A stretch of 64,000 bases of DNA, taken from positions 124,001-188,000 of the forward strand of contig NZ_AUIU01000012.1 of the NCBI RefSeq assembly GCF_000423865.1, in the 5' to 3' direction. This stretch comes from Thermodesulfovibrio thiophilus DSM 17215. Its GTDB lineage: Bacteria > Nitrospirota > Thermodesulfovibrionia > Thermodesulfovibrionales > Thermodesulfovibrionaceae. Of this stretch, positions 22,132-37,526 are shown one piece after another (position 1 is the stretch's first letter; every line of letters starts with the position of its first letter). Under the pieces are notes generated by a model that saw only the letters and a program-made list of their open reading frames with translations, had not been told where the DNA came from and searched no databases. The position numbers were made by a program, and so were the translations under genes.

Positions 22132-23623
22132 TACTACATTGAGAGATGGAGAACAATCTCCCGGTGCCTCAATGAACGTTGATGAAAAAATTCAAGTTGC
22201 AAAACAACTTAAAAAACTGGGTGTTGACATAGTAGAAGCAGGTTTTCCAATTGCATCTCCTGGAGATTTTGAAGCAGTTAACAGAATATCCAGAGAAGTT
22301 AAAGGTATCGTTGTTGCTGGGTTATGCAGAACCCGTGATCAAGACATTGAACGAGCTGCTGAGGCATTAAAACCAGCTGAACAAAAAAGAATACATACAT
22401 TCATTGCCACATCTGATATTCACCTGAAATACAAACTTCGTATGGATAAACAACAGGTTATTGAAGCTTCAGTCAGAGCTGTTAAAAAAGCCAGGCAGTA
22501 TACAGATGATGTTGAATTTTCAGCAGAAGATGCCACACGAACAGACTGGGATTATCTGTGTAAAATTACAGAAGAGGTAATAAAAGCAGGTGCTACCACA
22601 GTAAACATACCTGATACAGTTGGCTATACAGTTCCTCAAGAGTATGCTGAATTAATTGAATACCTTATAAATAAAGTTCCGAACATAGACAAAGCAATTA
22701 TAAGTGTTCACTGCCACAATGATTTAGGCCTTGCCGTAGCAAACTCTCTTACAGCAATACTTAAAGGAGCTGGACAGGTTGAATGTACAATCAATGGAAT
22801 TGGTGAAAGAGCCGGAAACGCAGCACTCGAAGAAATTGTGATGGCATTAAAAGTAAGAAATGATTTTTTCAAAACAGATACTAATATTGTAACACAGGAA
22901 ATTTACCGGACAAGCAGACTTATCAGCAAAATAACTGGCATGGTTATTCAACCCAATAAAGCAATTGTCGGAGCAAATGCTTTTGCTCATGAGGCAGGCA
23001 TTCATCAGGATGGAGTTCTTAAAGAAAGAACAACTTATGAAATAATGAAACCAGAGGACATAGGAATTCCAAGTTCCAAAATAGTTCTTGGCAAACACTC
23101 TGGAAGACATGCATTCAAGAAGAGACTTGAAGAACTTGGCTTCAGCTTAACAGATGAAGAGATAAATCGTGCATTTGAAAGATTTAAAAAACTTGCAGAT
23201 CAGAAGAAATATATATTCAATGAAGATCTTGAAGCACTTGTTTCAGATGAGTTTTTAAGAACTGCTGAAGTCTATCAGCTTGCAAACCTTGAAATAAGTG
23301 GCGGAATGAATAAAAAGCCTACTGCTACGGTTAAAATAAAAATTAATGATATGGAAAAAGAAATTACTGTTTCCGGTGACGGACCAGTAGATTCTGTGTA
23401 TAAGGCAATTACAGAGCTTACAAACTCAAAGGCAGAATTAAAAAAATTTGAAATTAAGGCAATAACAGGTGGAACAGACGCTCTTGGAGAAGTAACTGTT
23501 ATACTTGAAGAAGCCGGACATGCTGTAAGAGGACATGGTTCTGATATTGATATAATAGTTGCTTCTGCAAAAGCTTACATAAATGCATTAAATAAGCTTG
23601 CCTTAAAAAATTTGAAGGCTTAA
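22109..23623 (+). CDS. leuA: 2-isopropylmalate synthase LeuA
   Basis: A 504-residue enzyme of the long LeuA class, catalysing the first committed step of leucine synthesis from 2-ketoisovalerate and acetyl-CoA. The N-terminal TIM barrel has [31 protein letters not shown] (metal-binding HxH) and [23 protein letters not shown] and the C-terminal LeuA dimer (regulatory) domain with GGTDALGEV follow, implying leucine feedback. It starts within the pssA tail and its 3' end overlaps the convergent DUF815 gene by 21 bp. Citramalate synthase is a weaker alternative; the ilvC operon favours LeuA. Confidence 0.95.
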
Positions 23624-24340
23624 TACAAACTGATAGGCTGACCTGCCTGAAGTACCATGCACAAGAGCCCATTCATGGGCTCTTGTGATTAATTCCTCAT
23701 CAGATAAAATTAACTCAGCTTTTTTGGCATAATGTTTTACAACATTAAGATACTGTTCTTCTGAAAATCTGTAAAAACCTATTCTCAATCCAAATCTTTC
23801 AATCAAAGAAGCACGTTCCTGAATGCTGTCCTCAGGGAAGAGTTCATCATCAGTATTTGATATGGATGGCATAAGATGTCTTCTATTAGAAGTGGCATAT
23901 ATAACTGAATTTTCAGGAATCTCTTCAATACCACCATCCATAACAATCTTTAAATCTCTAAACTCCTGTTCATCTTCATTAAAAGATAGGTCATCTATAA
24001 AAATAATAAATCTAAAATTTTCATATTCATAAATAAGATCATAAAGATAAGGGATTGTTAGAATATCAGACTTTAAAACCTGAATCATACGTAAAGGAGA
24101 ATCTTTAAAATAAGTTAAAAGCGCTCGTATAAGAGTTGTTTTACCTGTTCCCCTTTCACCCCATAAAAGGACATTGTTAACCTCCTTTCCTTCAATAAAG
24201 GCTTTAGTATTTGAAAGCAACAATTCTTTTTGCCTTTCAATACCTAGAAGTTCGTTAATATCATATACGGGCAGTCTATTAACAATCTTTAATTTTTTCT
24301 CTTTACCGTTCCATACAAAGGCTTGATTTTGCTCAAACAT
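23603..24340 (-). CDS. DUF815-family AAA+ ATPase
   Basis: A 245-residue protein from the ATG at 24340. Walker A is [17 protein letters not shown] (about residue 60), Walker B is [10 protein letters not shown] (about 110), and [14 protein letters not shown] is the sensor-1 region; [14 protein letters not shown] closes the lid domain. DUF815 proteins are widespread stand-alone ATPases without an agreed function. The TTG two codons upstream lies inside the promoter spacer and is rejected. The ATG is 8 nt downstream of an extended -10 and has no Shine-Dalgarno, so a leaderless message is predicted. It overlaps leuA tail-to-tail. Confidence 0.88.
23661..23686. repeat. Perfect 10-bp inverted repeat with 6-nt loop
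   Basis: ACAAGAGCCC, a 6-nt loop, then GGGCTCTTGT. It lies just past the leuA stop and inside the DUF815 coding region (residues [10 protein letters not shown] region near the C-terminus). It could end leuA transcription, although no T-tract follows on the plus strand. Confidence 0.5.
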
Positions 24341-24348
24341 AGTCAATT

Positions 24349-24357
24349 ATTATAACA
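24349..24357 (-). promoter_or_regulatory. Extended -10 (TGTTATAAT) of the DUF815 gene
   Basis: On the minus strand TGT-TATAAT is followed by 8 nt and then the ATG at 24340. This is one of five extended -10 elements in the window placed so that the transcript would begin at the start codon. Confidence 0.6.
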
Positions 24358-24433
24358 TACAATATTTGGCTTTCATTAATAGAAGTTATCTCATAGTTTT
24401 AAATTTTCTTAAAAATATAAATTAAACCTTATA

Positions 24434-26887
24434 TCATACCTTAAACCACTCTGACATAGAATGCAATTCTGTAGCTAATTTTGATAAGTTTTCTGCTGCG
24501 CGTTTTATTTCACCAATTGAGTTACTTAGTTCTTTTGTTATTATTGAAATATTCTCCATGTTATGGGAAACCTCCTCAGATGCAGATGACTGTTCTTCTG
24601 TTGCCACTGCAATTCTCTGTACCATATCAGCAACACCTTCTACATACGATACGATTTCGTCTATGGCTTTCAATGTGTTCTCTACGTGTGCAAGCACTTT
24701 CCCTACAGATTCTCTCTCTTCCTTCATAAAGCCAACGGAATCTGAAATCTCGCTTTGCATTGTCTTGACTGTATTTGCTATGTTTTCTGTGGCTACTGTT
24801 GTCCTTTCTGCAAGTTGCCTAACATTGTCTGCCACCACAGCAAAACCCTTTCCCTGCTCCCCTGCACGAGCTGCTTCAATTGCCGCATTCAGTGCAAGAA
24901 GGTTTGTCTGGTCTGCTATTTCTTTTATCAAAGTTATTATTTCGTTTATCTCTTCTGATTTATGTCCAAGGGATTCAATTTTTGCAGCGGATTCTTTAAC
25001 TTGATCAGCAAATTTTTGTAGTTCTTCCATGGTTATATGCATTGCATTTTTACCTTGCAACGCTATCTGCTTCATCTTCTGTGCAGCCTCTGCAGTATGC
25101 GAAGCATTTTTTGCTACATCAAGTGTTGTCTGAGCCATCTCTGTCATTGCAGTAGCTGATTGTTCTATTTGGACATGCACGTCATTAGAATTTTTTTCAA
25201 GTGAGGTGGAAGTTGCCGATAATTCTTCTGAACTACTTGCAAGAGTTCCTGTAAACATCTTCATTTTTCCAACTATTTCCCTCAGATTCTCTATCATCTT
25301 ACACATTGATTTGTGCACTAACCCAATTTCATCTTGTGCGTATTCTGTCTTTGCACATGTAAGATCACCCTGTGCTATCTGGTCAGCACCCCATATGAGT
25401 TCACTCAAAGGTTTTGAAACAGAACGATAAATCCATGAACCAAATGCTATGCCTAGAATAATAGCTCCTATTCCTATGGCTGTAATAAGTATTGTGCTAA
25501 ATTGCACCATCTTATTTACTGTTCCAATAGCTTTTTCCTGTTCGCCTTGTGCGGTTGTAACTGTTTGCTTACTTTTTTGGGCTTGATTCATAACTATTTC
25601 TCTTAATCTTTCCGATGCCTGTTTTGCTTTTTCTTGCATCAAAATCTGATGGCGTATTTTGGATATAATACCATCCTTTGCTAATAATGCTTCTTTAATT
25701 GAAGTAAGAGCAATTTTTACATTTCGGAGCATTGAAAGTTCTTCTTTGGCCTCGAGTTTTGTAAGGGCCTTTTCAAGGCTTTTTTGTACAGAATCTATTT
25801 TTTCGTATATTGTTCTTATCTCTACCTCCACGCTATCAATATCTTTTGCTGATGTTAGGGTAAAAAGTCTTGTTGATAGCCCTTCTATGGATAGACCGAG
25901 AGATACAAGTTCTGAATTCGCTATCAGTACATTGTTTGCTATATTTGCTTGAGTAAAGACTTTATTCTGATTTTCTGTCTCTGATCTGTATTTCTCTTTG
26001 GCAGAAGTAATATCACGATCTATTGTTGATATTACGAATGCAAGTTTTCCTGCTATTTCTTTATTTATTATATCGAATCGTTTTTTCTGTTCACCATTGC
26101 CCTGTCCAATAATAGCTACCTGAATTTTTACAAGTTCTTCTACTTTATCTTCTATGGTTTTAATTTCCGAATGAAGGTTCTTTGATGCTTGGATGTAGTC
26201 ATTCTGAAGTGCTTTATTGATAACTGCCCCAACTTTGTCCTTTGCTATTGCCAGTGCGTTTTTATCTTGAGCTTTCTGTATTTCAAAAACTGCAATTTGG
26301 ATGTCTTTAAGCATTGTTTTCAACAGTTCTACTTCTCTAAGGTGAGATAATATACCTTTTGTGTCTTCAAGAGATGTCATAAAATGTGCCGACCGATTGA
26401 GTTGGAGAGCTTTTATCTTTGCATCCATATTTTTCAATCTATTTGAAGCTTCTTTAAGTTTCTGTATAATTGTTCTGTTTGCTATTCTGGCTTCTTCTTC
26501 AGCCTTGAGCCTATTTTCGGTAATATCAAAAATTTCGTTTGCTACAAGACTTAATTCATTATAAGTCTCCATTTTTATTCCGCCATATAGAGATTCAAGT
26601 GCATTTTGTGTATTTTTTACCTCCGACAGAGACTTCTCTGCCTCAGAGCGGTATATTTTATATTCATCCATGTTTCTTGATACACTAACTTTTACAAGGT
26701 CTGCAGTAGCACCATGTATTGCTCTCTGAAATTCAACTGTCCTCATCTGAAATGGGGTGCTCCTCTCCGTGAGATAAAACAGTTTACTCTTAACAAAGCC
26801 CATACCTATGATGCTTGTAGCTGCAACTACACCAACTATTATAATAACTATGATTACATTCAGTGTAAGTTTTGTTTTGATTGTCAT
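24434..26887 (-). CDS. Methyl-accepting chemotaxis protein with large periplasmic helical domain
   Basis: An 817-residue chemoreceptor. One membrane helix near residues 8-32, an all-helical periplasmic domain of about 430 residues, a second helix near 467-490, a HAMP domain ([19 protein letters not shown]), then the signalling hairpin with [33 protein letters not shown]. The sensor region is much longer than a four-helix-bundle Tar-type domain and looks like tandem or extended helical-bundle modules. It is the last gene of the Mo-reductase locus, 57 nt after the rhodanese gene, so sensing the respiratory substrate or a binding-protein complex is plausible. No other che genes are in the window. 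No pentapeptide CheR tether is visible at the C-terminus. Confidence 0.93.
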
Positions 26888-26905
26888 AATTTTCCTTTTT
26901 TAAGT

Positions 26906-26933
26906 AGTGGCAGAGTAGTCAAACCCTGCCACT
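26906..26933. repeat. Inverted repeat between rhodanese and chemoreceptor genes
   Basis: AGTGGCAG and CTGCCACT form a perfect 8-bp stem with a 12-nt loop in the 57-nt gap. On the minus strand no T-tract follows, so it is more likely a processing or partial-attenuation site than a full terminator. Confidence 0.4.
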
Positions 26934-26944
26934 CTATTTTTCCC

Positions 26945-27424
26945 TTACTCTGTAGGATAACCTCTCTTTTTCCAGTCGGGAAGCCCATCTCTGTACCAGT
27001 AAACCTTATAACCGAGAGAGTGCAACATTACAGCAACAGATGGTGAACGCCAGCATTTAATTCCATTACAGTACACAATATACTCTTTGTTTTTATCGAG
27101 TTTGTCTGCCATAGAAGGCCCTTGTTTAATTAAATCATCACAGAAAAACCATGTTGCACCAGGAATCCTTTCTGTATCATACTGTACTTTAATACGATTA
27201 TCCAAAAAAACAGCCTTTTTCGACTTCCATAATTCGTATGCCTTATCGCCACTAATATTGGGTATCCCTTCAATTGATGCAGGCATCTCTTTCTGTGCCT
27301 TCTCGAGCTCATGAATTTCATTTACCTTGTTCATTACTGCGTCAGGCCATGCAGCAGCGAAAGCAATACCAATTGCAACAAATATTACTACTAACATCAG
27401 CCCTAAACATTTTCTTCTGTTCAT
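26945..27424 (-). CDS. Exported rhodanese-domain sulfurtransferase
   Basis: A 159-residue protein. Residues 1-24 form a signal peptide, so it is periplasmic. The single rhodanese domain has AVFLDNR (entry to the domain), IPGATWF, the active-site loop YCNGIKCWRS and the C-terminal GYKVYWYRDGLPDWKKRGYP. The first loop cysteine aligns with the sulfur-carrying residue; a second cysteine five residues later is unusual. Rhodaneses bind and pass sulfane sulfur, and periplasmic ones deliver polysulfide sulfur in Wolinella-type respiration (Sud is the known example). Placement in an operon with a Psr/Phs-type reductase supports such a role here. Confidence 0.88.
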   Translation of the reverse strand: MNRRKCLGLMLVVIFVAIGIAFAAAWPDAVMNKVNEIHELEKAQKEMPASIEGIPNISGDKAYELWKSKKAVFLDNRIKVQYDTERIPGATWFFCDDLIKQGPSMADKLDKNKEYIVYCNGIKCWRSPSVAVMLHSLGYKVYWYRDGLPDWKKRGYPTE

Positions 27425-27476
27425 TTTACCTCTCCTCCTTAAATTATAATTAATTCACCAACGGTGAATTGTCGCC

Positions 27477-28313
27477 CTATTGTTGTGAAATATATTTCTG
27501 CCCTTCTCCTTTAATAAAATCAATTAATTTCTGGACATTAACAGTTGGATTGCCTTTTGTGAGTAACAGTATCGGCATCACTACCTCAGGTACTTCAAGA
27601 GCCTTTATCTCTTCTTCCATCCACGTTAGATCGCAAACCGAACATTTCTCTTCATGTGTTCCAGAATATACTGATGTGTCATTAACAATCGCTACAGATC
27701 CTATTCCTACTGCTTCAGGATGCGCAGCAACCTTCTGCTTTACGTCTTCTATTGTTAATGCTTCAAGGATATCCCTCCTAGGAGATTCACAATCTAAAAT
27801 ATTTTTTATAAATAAGCTGTTGATTTCAGATGTAAGTGTGCTCCAGACAACTACAACAGGCAGATTTTTACCACCCACATCCTTCCAGTTAGTTATATTA
27901 CCAGTAAATATTCTTTTTAGCTGTTCTTTTGAAAGTTTTGAAACCGGATTCTCTTTATGGACAAAAATAGCGATTTTAGCTTTCCCTATCACTACATGTT
28001 GTAGTGATGTCAAGTCTTTAATCTTCGTTTTTTCCTTTTTCATAGAATCCATCCAATCATTGCAACTAAAACCTATCGTTACAGCATCTACAGCACCATT
28101 TTCAAGATCCTCCAATGCAAGCTTGGGATCAGTAAAAGCAATCTGCAGTTTTATTCCTGACTCTCTTTCAAAATGTTTTTTTATTGGCTTCAGAATATTT
28201 TCAGCCGACACTGCACTTGCTTTTATTCTGATTTCATCCGCATAAGTACCAACACTTAATGATAAAAGAAAAATTATTACAGCTGTTACTAATAACAATT
28301 CATATTTTTTCAT
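27477..28313 (-). CDS. PstS-like periplasmic substrate-binding protein
   Basis: A 278-residue protein with a signal peptide (residues 1-25, cut near TYA). The PstS/PBP-like-2 fold is indicated by FERESGIKLQIAF, GAVDAVTIGFS and SKEQLKRIFTGNITNWKDVGG, typical of phosphate-type binding proteins. No ABC permease or ATPase genes are nearby, so transport is unlikely to be its job. A CSVCD motif near residue 225 is unusual and could bind metal or sulfur. Orphan binding proteins next to oxyanion enzymes (for example AioX) act as sensors; sitting between the reductase and a chemoreceptor suggests the same. It has its own possible -10 (TATAAT, minus strand 28342-28337). Confidence 0.82.
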   Translation of the reverse strand: MKKYELLLVTAVIIFLLSLSVGTYADEIRIKASAVSAENILKPIKKHFERESGIKLQIAFTDPKLALEDLENGAVDAVTIGFSCNDWMDSMKKEKTKIKDLTSLQHVVIGKAKIAIFVHKENPVSKLSKEQLKRIFTGNITNWKDVGGKNLPVVVVWSTLTSEINSLFIKNILDCESPRRDILEALTIEDVKQKVAAHPEAVGIGSVAIVNDTSVYSGTHEEKCSVCDLTWMEEEIKALEVPEVVMPILLLTKGNPTVNVQKLIDFIKGEGQKYISQQ

Positions 28314-28585
28314 ATTTCTACCATCCTATTAATTTAATTATAGCCCTGACAATTAAAAATTTTTATTAATATTTTATTAATTATATATATTTTATTAATT
28401 ATATAACCTGCTCATTATAATTTTTCCACCTTATAATAATATATATTTTAAAAGAGCATATTTATTAAATTGAATATAATTTTAAATTAAAATTGTCAAC
28501 TCCTCGAAATTCTTTAAAAAATCTTTCTGAAAAAATACTGTTTACACCCATTAGGCTCTATAAAAATTATAATATCTGAACATTA
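28314..28585. other. 272-bp AT-rich gap between torD and the binding-protein gene
   Basis: No gene is visible. It contains a minus-strand TATAAT (28342-28337) and, at about 28370-28404, TTTTATTAAT repeated three times within near-pure A/T sequence. The gap suggests that the binding protein, rhodanese and chemoreceptor can be transcribed separately from the reductase genes. Confidence 0.5.
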
Positions 28586-29251
28586 TTACGATATTTTCTG
28601 CGCTTCTAACGTTATAAAGTTTTCCAGCAATTTCCCTATCAATCTATAAAACTCTATAACTGTATATCGCTGAAGTCTCTGCGCAAAAGCTATAGCAAAA
28701 GAATATAAGTGGTCTTTAAGCATCTGTAACTGCAATCCTTTAGCTTTTTCAAGAACAACTATGTAATTGTTGGAATGCGCTTGGGCTTCTTGAAAACATA
28801 AATAAGACATAAATTCAAGCTCAAGAGCGATATGGTCTGGTGGCAGAGAAAAATTATCAACAACTTGTAATCCTGATCTGTGATAAAGACGAGCTACCTC
28901 GATTGTTGATTCTTGAAGCAGTTTGCCTTCCTTGTAAACTGATTCAAAAAGAGGAACCATTCGTGGTCGAGAAGTATGACAAAGCCTAGTGTATTCTTTC
29001 TGTAAGTCCAAAAGATAAGATTCTAATGTTGATTTCTGACCTATTATAACAACGTGACTTATAAACTCATCAATATTAATCTTAATCTGGATAATACCTG
29101 AGCTTATATCATCAAGGTTATCTTTGAAAAAATTCATTTCCTCATTAACCTGCTTGGAAAACAATTTATTTATAAATTCTGAATTTGGATAATCAAGAGC
29201 CTCTGCAAAGAATGAATAAAAATATATTCTTATATCATGATTCAATTCCAT
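28586..29251 (-). CDS. TorD-family chaperone for the molybdopterin reductase
   Basis: A 221-residue all-helical protein of the TorD/DmsD/NarJ family, which binds the Tat signal of a specific molybdoenzyme and assists cofactor insertion. Recognisable segments are YSFFAEALDYPNSEFINKLF at the N-terminus and LPPDHIALELEFMSYLC in the middle, the family's P-x2-H-x3-E-x2-F-type signature. It lies directly after the FeS subunit of the reductase. The start chosen is the ATG at 29251; a TTG two codons earlier is possible. The only Shine-Dalgarno is 29 nt away on the far side of a hairpin. Confidence 0.87.
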   Translation of the reverse strand: MELNHDIRIYFYSFFAEALDYPNSEFINKLFSKQVNEEMNFFKDNLDDISSGIIQIKINIDEFISHVVIIGQKSTLESYLLDLQKEYTRLCHTSRPRMVPLFESVYKEGKLLQESTIEVARLYHRSGLQVVDNFSLPPDHIALELEFMSYLCFQEAQAHSNNYIVVLEKAKGLQLQMLKDHLYSFAIAFAQRLQRYTVIEFYRLIGKLLENFITLEAQKIS

Positions 29252-29260
29252 AAACAATCA

Positions 29261-29291
29261 GGATGGGCAAAAACTTGCCCATCCCCCTCCT
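29261..29291 (-). promoter_or_regulatory. Hairpin between Shine-Dalgarno and torD start
   Basis: AGGAGG (minus strand 29291-29286) is followed by a perfect 10-bp stem, GGATGGGCAA with TTGCCCATCC, and a 4-nt loop (29284-29261), then 9 nt and the torD ATG. If folded, the hairpin shortens the effective spacing to about 10 nt. The same stretch also contains an ATG (29282) opening a 15-codon frame. Confidence 0.5.
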
Positions 29292-29301
29292 TTTAATTCA
29301 T

Positions 29302-29994
29302 TCATTGATTCTTCTTTTCTTCTATCTGTTTTCTACGGTCACTGTATTTCTTTAATCCCACATAAACAAGCGTTGCTACAGCAGCCGCTCCCATAATTGT
29401 AGATGGTCCTCTTCCTGTTATGGAGTAGCTTGCAACATCTGGATAACCAATATTAACAGGCTTTTCTTTCATAAGCATTATAACACTCGTGCCACCATTC
29501 TCTTCCATTCCATACATATATAACTTGTTAGCTTCCGATAGTTTTTGGGCGGTATTTAAAATTTCTCCACGATCTCCAAAAGTAAGCGCACCGGTTGGAC
29601 AAGCCTCAACACAAGCTGGATTTATACCTTTAAGCACTCTGTGAATGCACATCGTACATTTAACAAATTCCTTTTTCTGTAAATCCCACTGAGGTACATT
29701 AAAAGGACATGCTACAACGCAGGTTTTACATCCAATGCAATGTTGGGGATTATGAAGCACTATTCCCTCAGGCGTTTTATAAAATGCTCCACTTGGACAT
29801 GAAGCAACACAGGAAGGATTCTCACAGTGCATACATCTGTGTTGAAGTAAACCATTGTCCTGAATTAAAACCACTGTTCTTGAAAAACCTCTTGCTGCCT
29901 GTTGATGAAGTCTGTTTTCCTGCACGCATTTATAGAAACACGTATTACAACCAGTACAAAATCTGGTATCTATAAGAAATCCATAATTTGCCAT
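29302..29994 (-). CDS. Four-cluster FeS electron-transfer subunit (PsrB/DmsB-like) with C-terminal membrane anchor
   Basis: A 230-residue ferredoxin-type subunit. Four motifs are FCTGCNTCFYKC, RCMHCENPSCVASC, HCIGCKTCVVAC and KCTMCIHRV with CVEAC further on, for four [4Fe-4S] clusters linking the membrane subunit to the catalytic subunit. A hydrophobic stretch near 195-215 (IMGAAAVATLVYVGL) may anchor it. It has no Tat signal, as usual, and would travel with the catalytic subunit. Its ATG directly follows the TAA of the catalytic gene with no gap. Confidence 0.93.
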   Translation of the reverse strand: MANYGFLIDTRFCTGCNTCFYKCVQENRLHQQAARGFSRTVVLIQDNGLLQHRCMHCENPSCVASCPSGAFYKTPEGIVLHNPQHCIGCKTCVVACPFNVPQWDLQKKEFVKCTMCIHRVLKGINPACVEACPTGALTFGDRGEILNTAQKLSEANKLYMYGMEENGGTSVIMLMKEKPVNIGYPDVASYSITGRGPSTIMGAAAVATLVYVGLKKYSDRRKQIEEKKNQ

Positions 29995-32583
29995 TTATGA
30001 TCTACCTCCTTTCTTTATGCTTACATAAACATCTTCTACCCAGCCCATGCCCGTGGGATCATATTTTTTAACAATATTGGGATCTTTCTGAGGAATTAAA
30101 TCACCATCACGATACCCAAAACTCTTTGCATAACGGAGCTTAGGTGAACGATGTCCAAGTCCATGAAAAGTTATCACACAATCTTTGCGTGCCACTCTAC
30201 TGGAAATGTGAACCCGTGCCTTAACAGGACGCGGTAATACAGTCATATATTTGGGATTTGTCTCAAGTGTTACCCAATCACCTTCTGATATACCCATTTC
30301 CTGCGCTACCTGAGGATTTATCCAAACACGATCTATAAAATTTTTTTCACAAAGCGACTTAATTACAGGATTATTTAGAAAGTTAGGATCTGCATGCATA
30401 GTCCATGGCGCTCTTGTAACAATAAGTGAAAATCTGTAATCTCCTTCAGGTTCTGTCCATCGTTTTGCCCATTTTGGAAGTGGATCATGTCCAGCTTCTA
30501 AAATTTCATCTAAGTAAATTCTGATCCGACCCTCTGGACGTCCGTATCCGATTTCTCTAATTGTTCTCCAATTAGGATATGGCCTCTTCTGTATCCAGAT
30601 CCCTCCCTTTTGTGTTAAGAATTCTTTTGTATTATTGGCAATACCCTGTTTCTTAAGCGCATAATCTCCCGTATTAGTTGGTATAACTTTTTCAGGGTTA
30701 GTACTGCCATCAACAGTCCAGTATTCCGGAGCCAAAGCTAATCCTATCTTAACTGCAATGCCACCCCAGCCAATACAGTCTCCAGGAGACTTTTGAACAG
30801 CTGACCCAGCTACATAACATGGATACTTTGGATAGTACTGCCTAATATCCAGTTTAGCCTCTTCAAACTGATGTGTGCCAGGCAATATGTAATCACACCA
30901 GAAATAAGATAAATCATCCACATACAGATTCCAATCAACAACTAGTTCCATTTTTTCTAGCGCCTTCTCTACCATCTGTGGCTGAATTAGCGCATGCAGT
31001 CCTCTAAATGGATTTTTGAAAAAAACACATTTAATTTTTTTAGTATGATATAGCCCATAACCTATAATGCCATAATGACCTGGCGCAGAAAAGTCTTTCT
31101 TTTGATAAATATTTTCTGTTACCGAAAATTCATGCCTGAAATCCGGTGCCTCTGCTGGCAGAGGAGGATAAGGCTTTACAGGAGGAGCAATCTCTTCAAG
31201 CCACGGTATTTTGACATCAGATAAAAGTAACACTCCACCTTCATGATCAAAAGAACCTCCAAGAGCGTGAAGAATATTAATGGCATGCATCAATCTCCAA
31301 CTGTTAGCATAATTAGGACCAGCAGGGTCACGCTTAAGATTAGGAATACAACTGTAAGGAGATGCTTTTGCGTACTCTTCGGCAATTCTGGTAATTGCCT
31401 CCTGAGGAACCTCACTGATCTTTGATGCCCATTCAGCAGTATAATCTTTAATGCTTTCTTTTAAAAGTTGAAATACAGGATGAGCACTAATATGTTTCCC
31501 CTGATATTCAAATTCGTAAGGACCACCTTCTAACGCAGGGTCATCACACTTTCCTAACGGCTCAATTTTTTTATGTGTTTTACACCAGGCAAACCAATTA
31601 CCTTCGCTACCACCAATATGTAACTGAGTTTTTTCATCAACAAGAGCAGCAGAATCCGTATATTCTTTTAAAAATTTTTCATTGTAAAGTTTACGATCTA
31701 TAATAATTTTAATCATTGCCAGAGCTACAGCTAGGTCTGTTCCTGGTTTGATCGGATACCATTCATCAGCAAAACCATCAGCAATGGGAGTCTTCATAGG
31801 ATTAAATATGATAATCTTGGTTCCATTGCGTTTTCCTTCTGCGATATGATTGAGAATTCCTGCTTTTCCACATTTGGTAAAAGAATCAAAGCCAAACCAT
31901 ATCATATACTTAGTGGTACTGTAATCAAACCCCCAAACAGAATGTGTAAGAGTATATGTGCTTGAGTAATACTTATTTGGAGGATTGGTCAGCATAAGAG
32001 AATTGATGTAGTAATGAGTTCCGAAACATTCTGTCCGCTGATCGCTTCTCCTAACTCCAAGAGACCTGCAGAGACGATTGGTATAAGGGTCTCCTGGTGA
32101 ACAGAAAACAATCTCTTCTCTACTGAATTTTTTCATCCGTTGAATAATATCTGTTAAAGCGTCTTGTGTTGAAATTATCACCCATCCAGGATCCTCATTG
32201 AGACCCTTTTTAGGATTGGTTCTTTTTAAAGAAACAAGCAGCCTATCGGGATCATACATTGAATCTACAAAAGCAAGTCCCTTTATGCAATACTTACCTC
32301 TTGAAACAGGATCATCTTTCCATCCCTCAAGCGTTAAAGCTCTTTCCACTCCACTTTCTGAATCCTTACCAACCACAATATAATAAGCACAATCACATTC
32401 ACAGGCTCTTGCACATACTTGCGGTATTTTTTTTGTAATCGTGTATTTAAACTCTGTTTCTGTAGCTTCAGCAAAACTGGCAAAAGGTACTAAATTCTTA
32501 AAAATTGGAGAAAAACCAGCTAATAAAGCAGAAGTACTCCCCCATTTTAATAATTGTCTTCTGCTTAATTTCGCAGTTTCCAT
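29995..32583 (-). CDS. Periplasmic molybdopterin oxidoreductase catalytic subunit (Psr/Phs/Ttr-like)
   Basis: An 862-residue DMSO-reductase-family protein. A Tat signal with SRRQLLK (residues 7-13) precedes the catalytic domains. Cys57-x3-Cys61-x3-Cys65-x33-Cys99 bind the proximal [4Fe-4S] cluster. Cys186 (TECFGTHYY) sits where the molybdenum ligand lies, so a cysteine-ligated Mo as in polysulfide, thiosulfate, tetrathionate or arsenate reductases is expected. The C-terminal part has the molybdopterin-binding segments VWINPQVAQEMGISEGDWVTLET. With NrfD and FeS subunits it forms a quinone-linked complex facing the periplasm. The rhodanese nearby favours a sulfur substrate; the exact one cannot be read. 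Confidence 0.93.
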   Translation of the reverse strand: METAKLSRRQLLKWGSTSALLAGFSPIFKNLVPFASFAEATETEFKYTITKKIPQVCARACECDCAYYIVVGKDSESGVERALTLEGWKDDPVSRGKYCIKGLAFVDSMYDPDRLLVSLKRTNPKKGLNEDPGWVIISTQDALTDIIQRMKKFSREEIVFCSPGDPYTNRLCRSLGVRRSDQRTECFGTHYYINSLMLTNPPNKYYSSTYTLTHSVWGFDYSTTKYMIWFGFDSFTKCGKAGILNHIAEGKRNGTKIIIFNPMKTPIADGFADEWYPIKPGTDLAVALAMIKIIIDRKLYNEKFLKEYTDSAALVDEKTQLHIGGSEGNWFAWCKTHKKIEPLGKCDDPALEGGPYEFEYQGKHISAHPVFQLLKESIKDYTAEWASKISEVPQEAITRIAEEYAKASPYSCIPNLKRDPAGPNYANSWRLMHAINILHALGGSFDHEGGVLLLSDVKIPWLEEIAPPVKPYPPLPAEAPDFRHEFSVTENIYQKKDFSAPGHYGIIGYGLYHTKKIKCVFFKNPFRGLHALIQPQMVEKALEKMELVVDWNLYVDDLSYFWCDYILPGTHQFEEAKLDIRQYYPKYPCYVAGSAVQKSPGDCIGWGGIAVKIGLALAPEYWTVDGSTNPEKVIPTNTGDYALKKQGIANNTKEFLTQKGGIWIQKRPYPNWRTIREIGYGRPEGRIRIYLDEILEAGHDPLPKWAKRWTEPEGDYRFSLIVTRAPWTMHADPNFLNNPVIKSLCEKNFIDRVWINPQVAQEMGISEGDWVTLETNPKYMTVLPRPVKARVHISSRVARKDCVITFHGLGHRSPKLRYAKSFGYRDGDLIPQKDPNIVKKYDPTGMGWVEDVYVSIKKGGRS

Positions 32584-32621
32584 AATATTCCTCCCTTTAA
32601 TTTATTCTCCTAGCATATCTA

Positions 32622-33521
32622 CTACAGTAAATTACGAGATGTTCCAAGTATGCCAGCTGCAAGAATAAGATATCTCAATGTAAAACCACCTATAAAAACA
32701 CACAGGCCTGCAAGAATTCCTTTTGATATAAATTTAGGAGAAAGCTCTTCAATCTTTTTTAACTTCCATTCAAGATAAAATGGAGTAACCAATCCTACAA
32801 CAATTACTAAAAACCAAAATGATAAAGACAAAGCCCCTGTTAAAAGACGATTAACTGAAGCAATTGCTGCAGCATTTGATGACCAACCCATTGAAACCAG
32901 ATAAATTATTAGAATACATGTTTCAATGCCTATTCCCCACATATCAGCATGGCAGAGAAATTTCAAATTTTCAGCCTCTTGATTAATATCATGTTTCTTT
33001 GAAACAAAACCAAAAACTCCAATTAAAACTGCACTAATTCCAGTGGATATAGCCGAAGCTAGAAAGAGCAATGGCACCAGAAAGCTATTCCAGAAAGGAA
33101 CACCTCTGACGTCCCAGAGTAAAACTCCAGTGTAAAAAGCTGTTAAGATAGCAAGAACAAAACCTGTACCCCACAGTAAGCTTCCAGAAGATAATTTTTT
33201 ATTTCTAATATACCCAAGCCATTGAATACCACAGATAAAAAAGAAAAGTGTTAAGATCCAGGTTCCTGCTGCAATAACTGAACTATAAGGCCGTAAAAAA
33301 GCGTATACGAAGTTCATAGGCCTTCCTAAATCAAGAAATAAAAAAATAATACTCAAAATCAGACATGGAAGCGTTATTAAAATCCCTGTTCGAGTTGTTA
33401 AATTATCATCACCTCGTTTGTACCAGGCAAAAAATGCACTCAAATAAGCTCCTGCTGATACCCCTGCTAAAAAAAGATAAAGGGCAATCAGCCAACCCCA
33501 GGCTGTTTGGAGTTCTAGCAT
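32622..33521 (-). CDS. NrfD/PsrC-like quinone-interacting membrane subunit
   Basis: A 299-residue integral membrane protein with about eight hydrophobic segments. The N-terminus (LQTAWGWLIALYLFLAGVSAGAYL) is typical of NrfD/PsrC, and WDVRGVPFWNSFLVPLLFLASA is another family segment. It exchanges electrons between the menaquinone pool and the periplasmic FeS/Mo subunits. It is the first gene of the respiratory operon, which is the reverse of the common Psr order. An AGGAGG lies 7 nt before the ATG. Upstream is a 784-bp intergenic region. Confidence 0.92.
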   Translation of the reverse strand: MLELQTAWGWLIALYLFLAGVSAGAYLSAFFAWYKRGDDNLTTRTGILITLPCLILSIIFLFLDLGRPMNFVYAFLRPYSSVIAAGTWILTLFFFICGIQWLGYIRNKKLSSGSLLWGTGFVLAILTAFYTGVLLWDVRGVPFWNSFLVPLLFLASAISTGISAVLIGVFGFVSKKHDINQEAENLKFLCHADMWGIGIETCILIIYLVSMGWSSNAAAIASVNRLLTGALSLSFWFLVIVVGLVTPFYLEWKLKKIEELSPKFISKGILAGLCVFIGGFTLRYLILAAGILGTSRNLL

Positions 33522-36071: not shown

Positions 36072-37526
36072 TTAATCGACTTTTATACCGCTATCTATGC
36101 GATCACCTATTTCTTTATCTATATTGCGCCAGTATTCAATAGCACGCTTTAACACAGGTTCAGAAACTCCGTTTTTCAGACTGTCTATCACGTTAGATAC
36201 CAGTCTTTCACGCTGGGCATCATCCATAACTTTGCGTACAAGTGTGCCAGCCTGACCGAAATCATCATCATCTTGTCTTCTGGTATATGCAGCTCGAATA
36301 AATTCACCACTTGCGCTCCAGACAGCAAGTTCCGGGTATCTTTCAGGATCGGCCTTGGGACCTCCTTTGGAGTTTGGTGCATAAACGGGATCAGAGACTT
36401 TGTCAATACGCATGGCACCTCCTTTGCTGTAACTGTATACAGGGCTCTTTGGTCGATTGACAGGGATCTGCTTGTAGTTTACTCCAAGTCTTGCCCGATG
36501 AGCATCAGCATAAGAAAGCAATCTAGCAAGAAGCATCTTATCAGGGCTCGGTCCAATACCCGGTACAAGGTTATTGGGCTCAAATGCTGCCTGTTCAATC
36601 TCAGAATGAAAATCGCCTGGATTACGGTCAAGTATGAGCTTTCCAACCTCATACAGTGGATAGTCACTATGTGGCCAGACTTTAGTCAAGTCAAAAGGAT
36701 TGAACCGGTAAGCCTCAGCCTCTTTAAAAGGCATAATCTGTATTTTGAGTGTCCAGCTTGGGTAATCTCCTCGATTGATTGCATCAAACAGGTCACGGCG
36801 GTGATAGTCAGCATCTTTACCTGCAATTAAGTCTGCCTCCTTCTGTGTGAGATTCTCAATGCCCTGGTCAGTCTTAAAATGGTACTTGATCCAGAACTTC
36901 TCACCTTTACCGTTTATCCACATGTAAGTATGGCTTGAGTAACCATTCATATGCCTGTAGCTTTTTGGAATTCCACGATCACTAAAAAGAATGGTGACCT
37001 GATGAGCTGATTCAGGAGACAGAGTCCAGAAGTCCCACTGCATATCATTGTCACGAAGCCCGTTGTCTGCACGACGCTTTTGAGAATGAATGAAGTGCTG
37101 GAACTTCATTGGATCACGAATAAAAAACACTGGAGTATTGTTTCCTACCATATCGTAGTTACCTTCTGTGGTGTAAAATTTCAGTGCAAAACCACGCACA
37201 TCTCTCCATGTATCTGGACTGCCACTTTCACCTGCAACTGTTGAGAATCTGGCAAGCACTTCGGTTTTCGTACCCGGCTGAAATACAGCTGCCCTTGTGT
37301 AATCGCTTACATCATGGGTTACCTGGAAGTATCCAAACGCGCCTGAGCCCTTAGCATGAGGCTGTCGGTCAGGAATCATCTCTCTATTAAAATTTGCCAT
37401 CTGTTCCATAAGATAATGATCATGTAATACAATCGGTCCATCGGGTCCTACAGTAAGAGAAAACTCATCGCTGGATACAGGAATGCCTGCATCATTAGTT
37501 AAAATTTTTTCATTTTTGTCCTTCAT
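36072..37526 (-). CDS. katA: Monofunctional haem catalase (clade 3, small subunit)
   Basis: A 484-residue catalase of full length. The distal histidine lies in [10 protein letters not shown] (about residue 60), the asparagine in [10 protein letters not shown], and the proximal haem tyrosine in [14 protein letters not shown] (about residue 340). It dismutates hydrogen peroxide to water and oxygen. No signal peptide, so cytoplasmic. GC content is visibly higher than its surroundings (three sampled 60-base lines gave 45-48 percent), with frequent GGC, CTG and CGG codons, which suggests horizontal acquisition. It has its own promoter, an AGGAGG 7 nt from the ATG and a 3' hairpin, so it is a monocistronic unit. 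Confidence 0.97.

Follow-up and report, generated by a model that had tools for sequence, protein, structure and literature searches.

The seven genes at positions 24434–33521 of the window (the whole stretch of DNA analyzed here, 64,000 nucleotides of the Thermodesulfovibrio thiophilus DSM 17215 genome) are likely to be two independently inherited modules placed head to tail: a respiratory reductase, NrfD-A-B-TorD (module 1), and an indirect chemosensory unit made up of a PstS-like binding protein (PBP), a rhodanese and a chemoreceptor (MCP) (module 2). A first-pass annotation had treated all seven genes as a single module, a reading that gives way on comparison of genome neighborhoods: in the relatives read, the reductase and the last three genes do not travel together, as module 1 stands alone in Bacillota and the trio occurs without this reductase in other Nitrospirota. 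New here are a putative variant of binding-protein-dependent chemotaxis, namely the unit of PBP, rhodanese and chemoreceptor with its receptor family, and a reductase clade that appears to move laterally. The case also carries a warning, in that adjacency in one genome may mimic a functional module.

Gene Content and Layout of the Locus

The window genome comprises 18 contigs and 1,871,474 bp of low GC content, and T. thiophilus is described as an organism from thermophilic sludge with a genome of 1.87 Mb and 34.4% GC (PMC5165239, Table 2). Seven open reading frames, all on the minus strand, were found where the first-pass annotation had placed them, with the type of each backed by Pfam. Module 1 opens with the quinol-oxidizing membrane anchor NrfD (32622–33521; PF03916, 3e-33), followed by the Mo-bisMGD catalytic subunit A (29995–32583), the four-cluster FeS subunit B (29302–29994; Fer4_11 and others by Pfam) and a TorD/NarJ-type chaperone (28586–29257; PF02613, 1e-25). 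Module 2 consists of the exported PBP (27477–28313; PF12849, 2e-18), an exported rhodanese of 159 aa (26945–27424; PF00581, 7e-13), and an MCP of 817 aa with HAMP and signaling domains (24434–26887; MCPsignal 2e-44, HAMP 7e-8). The finer points of the annotation hold as well: A has a Tat leader (SRRQLLK) and a Cys ligand that aligns with Cys173 of Thermus Psr, no ABC transporter genes adjoin the PBP, the rhodanese loop carries two cysteines (C119-N-G-I-K-C124), and the MCP has a large periplasmic domain (~435 aa) that is predicted to be all-helical.

The intergenic distances are 38 bp (NrfD to A), 0 bp (A to B), 44 bp (B to TorD), 272 bp (TorD to PBP), 52 bp (PBP to rhodanese) and 57 bp (rhodanese to MCP), such that the only large gap, unmentioned in the annotation, falls exactly at the junction between the modules (28314–28585). 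We examined this AT-rich junction through the gene coordinates, the sequence and a promoter scan. It contains a perfect TTGACA; a well-spaced –10 element and a strong terminator were looked for in these 272 bp and neither was found, and the promoter scan gave a score not above that of shuffled sequence. Elsewhere in the window, a catalase gene (36072–37526) has a GC content of 43.8% and a GC3 of 37%, clearly above its neighbors, in a host that is a strict anaerobe, and was possibly acquired.

Subunit A and the Psr/Phs Enzymes

The architecture of the reductase, its Cys ligand to Mo and its NrfD anchor support its assignment as a quinol-linked enzyme of the Psr superfamily and, judged by its sequence, A belongs to an uncharacterized clade of such reductases. 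The protein carries the FeS motif CARACECDC...C, with the Mo-ligand Cys lying within SDQRTECFGTHYY, and its best PDB match is Thermus Psr (2vpw, 144 bits). It is 22–30% identical to PsrA and PhsA, and scores 180 bits against the curated NCBIfam PhsA model, below the cut-off of 694. The motifs SPGDPY, SDQRTECFGTHYY and KRDxAGPNY are common to the A clade. His145 and Arg332 (2vpw numbering) are residues that we take to belong to the Psr active site; the position equivalent to His145 is not conserved, being occupied by SPGDPY throughout the A clade, and the Arg332 column reads Lys-Arg in A. Among the 73 enzymes of our tree, the A clade forms a deep, isolated branch (stem 1.55) in the Psr/Phs half with a support of 94, at a point where long branches meet.

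Module 1 resembles PsrABC and PhsABC in its Tat-exported A subunit, FeS0 cluster, Cys-ligated Mo, four-cluster B subunit and NrfD anchor, but differs from them in having TorD inside the operon, as well as in an insert of ~55 aa in A that is missing in most Psr rows of the alignment. The window genome encodes two other Psr/Phs homologues (C11:3590, 464 bits, and C10:61566, 437 bits), of a kind that is widespread in the genus. The motifs and tree position of A thus suggest that it works like a Psr-type quinol-linked reductase, while its substrate is not readable from sequence; the acceptor is most likely a small inorganic molecule, and specifically a sulfur or selenium species. We note that T. 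thiophilus does not use elemental sulfur as an acceptor (PMC5165239, Table 2), which weakens the case for either S0 or polysulfide as the substrate of A. In the mechanism that we propose for module 1, TorD would mature A, A and B would be exported by the Tat system, NrfD would take electrons from menaquinol, and B would wire these on to the Mo site of A, where the small inorganic acceptor would be reduced.

Relatives and Distribution of Module 1

Within Nitrospirota, A has no match at E ≤ 1e-60 in the other 147 genomes of our first sample, seven members of the genus included. The best matches among 296 Nitrospirota genomes reach merely 88–115 bits, and the protein is found in no other sampled member of the genus. 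A contig scan with A alone as the query returned no relatives, and the same scan with a two-row A alignment returned three Bacillota MAGs (65–66% identity). Six further relatives (64–70%) come from sampled genomes of the phylum to which a Peptococcaceae genome belongs, such that A is 64–70% identical to its counterparts in all nine Bacillota genomes. Plasmid relatives were absent at 80% query coverage.

Three of the Bacillota loci (L257, L258 and L259) have the order NrfD-A-B-TorD exactly as in the window, and the NrfD proteins upstream of A in these loci are 55–58% identical to that of the window. The partners of A follow it more generally, at 56–66% identity for B in Bacillota_B (63–66% in L257–L259) and 47% in L140, and at 43–52% for TorD in Bacillota_B (46–52% in L257–L259) and 39% in L140. 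Other arrangements are A-B-C'-TorD, with a different membrane subunit C', in L261 and apparently also in L260, where the B frame is masked by a longer antisense ORF, and A-B-TorD-mobA in L140, the MAG relatives there being without NrfD next to A. The stretches read around A in the nine A-clade genomes, some of which stop at contig borders, hold no PBP, rhodanese or MCP gene. A separate search for the PBP in the three Bacillota MAGs, run without a positive control, was likewise negative. Upstream of A in two of the Bacillota MAG loci (L057:142-9000 and L058) are genes for Tat-exported flavoproteins and an FMN-binding-like protein, and further tatA/tatC, an fdhD-like gene and an HEPN/MNT-like pair. 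Module 1 is a self-contained respiratory operon, probably acquired from Bacillota_B-like bacteria, and the A clade represents an uncharacterized enzyme of respiration in anaerobic Bacillota that appears to cross phylum boundaries.

Two described systems invite comparison. The MOLY cluster (MolyA, MolyB and a TorD chaperone), a candidate for sulfur disproportionation, shares the A-B-TorD gene set with module 1, which, unlike MOLY, is usually accompanied by NrfD; in the pattern-limited contig scan with A, no hit from Desulfobacterota exceeded ~27%. The Srr selenite reductase of B. selenitireducens, which we compared by gene set, likewise combines A, B, anchor and chaperone with nearby rhodanese-domain genes, which are part of the srr operon (PMC12481199). 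However, SrrE and SrrF are proteins of 38 and 45 kDa encoded inside that operon, whereas the window rhodanese has 159 aa and is encoded in the chemosensory unit. Eight Syntrophales-type loci (L075:1034-3768, L116, L078, L060, L077, L074, L093 and L110) encode an exported rhodanese immediately before a psrA-like gene, with B, TorD and NrfD coming next; here Psr and rhodanese are truly arranged together, although the rhodanese is of another lineage than that of the window.

Ancestry of Module 2 and the Insertion Site

Querying Nitrospirota with the PBP and the rhodanese jointly identified the adjacent pair in several genomes of another family within the same order. In three genomes (G014, G067 and G087), PBP, rhodanese and MCP are adjacent within the main chemotaxis operon, which reads flhF, flhG, fliA, a HEAT protein, cheR, cheY, cheA, a cheV-like gene, PBP-Rhd-MCP and cheB (names assigned by eye, the trio excepted). 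The trio is thus conserved as a unit in other Nitrospirota, in keeping with the earlier view that these three proteins belong together. Its locus variants are a rhodanese with three PBPs (L178), PBP-MCP (L176, L179, L182, L184 and L185) and Rhd-MCP (L188–L191), and no A/B/NrfD/TorD operon stands beside trio relatives in the loci read.

The window PBP is 62–63% identical to that of G014, which itself adjoins a rhodanese and an MCP, and 49% identical to that of G067; the rhodanese is 81–85% identical to the chemotaxis-operon rhodaneses of these two genomes, and the MCP periplasmic domain 72 and 69% identical to theirs, respectively. In one quick tree, the window MCP is nested in genus g3 of this other family as sister to G014 (SH-aLRT 97). 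Nesting within a foreign clade suggests that the trio, too, was probably acquired and, with the trio missing from its other members, the genus would have needed many losses, a less economical course than acquisition; we weighed acquisition against repeated loss from the distribution and this one tree. The probable source of module 2 is the chemotaxis operon of a relative that belongs to a different family within this order.

We compared 16 genomes of the genus, the window genome included, five of which are incomplete. The leuA-DUF815 end is kept across all 16, and the block ilvC-psd-pssA-leuA-DUF815 is whole in the four relatives read. The 15 other genomes lack the stretch that runs from NrfD to MCP, except for a few matches of <100 bp and the MCP signaling region, where the matches are to other MCPs. 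The cluster adjoins the conserved DUF815 gene (23603–24434), and the genes past DUF815 differ among the relatives read (L021, L022, L023 and L024), which makes the insertion site a variable one. The DUF815 side is a candidate insertion hot spot.

The proposal made at first pass, in which one integrated module detects a substrate, directs swimming toward it and respires it, the rhodanese being the sulfur carrier, draws on the adjacency of the genes on one strand, on the shared absence of both sets from the 15 other genus members, which could mean that they were fixed together, and on the real occurrence of exported rhodaneses beside Psr-like enzymes in the eight Syntrophales-type loci and the Srr operon (PMC12481199). 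However, neither set carries the other in any relative read, the 272-bp gap falls at their junction, the two sets have separate ancestries, and the insertion site is variable; we thus consider an integrated module unlikely, and retain the reading of two modules. Adjacency and shared presence in this one genome do make a joint find-and-respire function in T. thiophilus possible.

The Chemoreceptor Family and Its Upstream Partners

The periplasmic domain of the MCP has no Pfam match, and a search with it recovered relatives in 22 of 296 Nitrospirota genomes; a profile search of 395 genomes from the phylum to which a Desulfobacteraceae MAG belongs found it in 20. By a hand tally (34 Nitrospirota genes besides that of the window), an exported partner is encoded directly upstream of the receptor in 32 of 33 readable Nitrospirota cases and in 14 of 16 from Desulfobacterota. 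In Nitrospirota, the upstream gene is a PstS-like PBP, alone or followed by a rhodanese, in 23 cases, a rhodanese alone in 4, a Tll0287-like gene in 3, Peripla_BP_6 in 2 and another MCP in 1, with 1 contig edge. The Desulfobacterota partners are PstS-like (6), Peripla_BP_6 (6, in two of which a small ORF intervenes), cytochrome c (1) and an NHL-repeat protein (1), with none evident in 2 and a contig edge in 4. That the receptor gene so regularly follows genes for exported proteins of unrelated types supports a receptor with interchangeable partners (PstS-like, LivK-type, rhodanese or Tll0287-like), which could make this family a model for modular sensing. The rhodanese is a partner in nine cases besides the window, in Nitrospirota only, and a receptor-plus-rhodanese query of eight genomes from other phyla gave no match.

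The Tll0287-like (PF11845) exported partners, possibly heme-type sensors, lie upstream of the receptor at L196:3625-7087, L195 and L197, and hemerythrin genes adjoin PBP and receptor in family f9 (L184:10643-11050, L185:7229-7636 and L183:13289-13696). Neighbors of this kind, together with the cytochrome c case, are what would be expected if module 2 sensed redox state or oxidants, with the C-x4-C rhodanese reporting redox state and not sulfur. We regard this as improbable, as PstS-like and Peripla_BP_6 proteins have folds that bind ligands, and several of the PBP/rhodanese loci lie near sulfur genes.

Proposed Indirect Sensing and the Binding Protein

AioX and ArrX are orphan oxyanion-binding proteins, of which AioX feeds a histidine kinase. 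They resemble the present case as orphan binding proteins close to a metalloenzyme, but belong to a different PBP family, and no histidine kinase or response regulator is encoded among the ORFs at 19.7–39 kb of the window. The AioX-type parallel drawn previously is thus a poorer fit than indirect chemotaxis of the CtpL/PstS type. In P. aeruginosa, phosphate itself is not bound by the CtpL ligand-binding domain, which instead binds Pi-loaded PstS 1:1 with a KD of 3.7 μM (PMC4926252). Common to both systems are a PstS-like protein and a chemoreceptor whose periplasmic part is large and helical; however, the PstS of P. aeruginosa is part of a Pi transporter, whereas the window PBP is an orphan encoded with its receptor, has diverged in the Pi loop and is accompanied by a rhodanese.

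A single-sequence prediction of the MCP periplasmic domain is all helices (pLDDT 69), and the top Foldseek match of this moderate-quality model is the McpZ sensing domain (8f7n; E 2e-5, prob 1.00, TM 0.36–0.41), with the TorS-TorT complex (3o1i) also among the matches. Both have a long helical sensing domain, as the model predicts for the window MCP, and in the TorS-TorT complex the binding protein TorT sits on the helical sensor; neither matches the window MCP by sequence, and TorS, unlike the window receptor, is a histidine kinase. From the upstream partners of the receptor and these analogies, we infer that module 2 senses indirectly, as in CtpL/PstS or TorS/TorT. The exported PBP and the exported rhodanese would each capture a ligand and, as gene order and the single-sequence model suggest, the loaded proteins would then bind to the MCP at its extended helical domain in the periplasm, and the receptor would signal to CheA.

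Phosphate taxis by a true PstS/CtpL equivalent, with the rhodanese incidental, would suit the PstS-like fold of the PBP and has CtpL/PstS itself as a precedent. Yet the PBP scores 76 against the curated PstS model TIGR02136, below the cut-off of 206.6, the Pi loop RAAGSGSR of 4exl aligns to STLTSEIN in the window protein, and the receptor is accompanied by a rhodanese alone in four genomes, which together leave this explanation highly improbable. We also considered a specially re-tooled ligand pocket in the PBP and rejected it: 19% of the family-conserved columns are broken, which is inside the range of 2–26% seen in the others. The predicted structure of the PBP (pLDDT 36) was unusable.

The Rhodanese and Its Sulfur Context

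Aligned with eight relatives, the window rhodanese shows C119 and C124 to be kept in every sequence, as would suit chemistry by way of a persulfide or a disulfide. Genes for TusA, Sulf_transp (YeeE/YedE type), an exported rhodanese or a sodium:sulfate symporter-type protein are found ~5 kb or less from the PBP in two genomes (G114 and G067), where TusA and Sulf_transp were assigned by Pfam and DsrE by eye only; the YTD cluster has been put forward as a marker for the disproportionation of sulfur (PMC12998232). These surroundings make sulfane sulfur the favored ligand class of module 2, which the rhodanese would plausibly hold as a Cys persulfide.

The Psr/Sud parallel suggested at first pass, with the rhodanese as partner of the reductase, is weak, since its closest kin (81–85%) are located in chemotaxis operons and it is missing next to A in the Bacillota stretches read. 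The related possibility that rhodanese and PBP serve the enzyme and not the receptor, by delivering substrate to A, is very doubtful: while their genes adjoin the reductase here and rhodanese kin elsewhere adjoin sulfur-related genes, both genes adjoin the receptor in genomes without such a reductase nearby, and neither protein is encoded beside the Bacillota reductase operons in the stretches read. The rhodanese could also merely protect or reduce the PBP or the receptor.

A literature search found no paper on a rhodanese paired with a chemoreceptor, and this partnership, which appears to be undescribed, suggests sulfur taxis. We tentatively propose, as a possibility short of an even chance, that the exported rhodanese acts as a sulfur-taxis antenna that loads sulfane sulfur on a cysteine of its loop and docks with or in place of the PBP, and that in T. 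thiophilus a copy of this unit came to lie next to a reductase acquired recently. There is little to explain the way in which anaerobes of the sulfur cycle locate zero-valent sulfur, and the rhodanese-linked receptor family would be a testable candidate for such sulfur taxis. A second conserved, sulfur-looking locus is found in many Nitrospirota (L264, L265, L266, L270, L271 and L273), in which a paralogous exported rhodanese lies between UspA-like genes and a gene for a PF03601 (YeiH-type) membrane protein.
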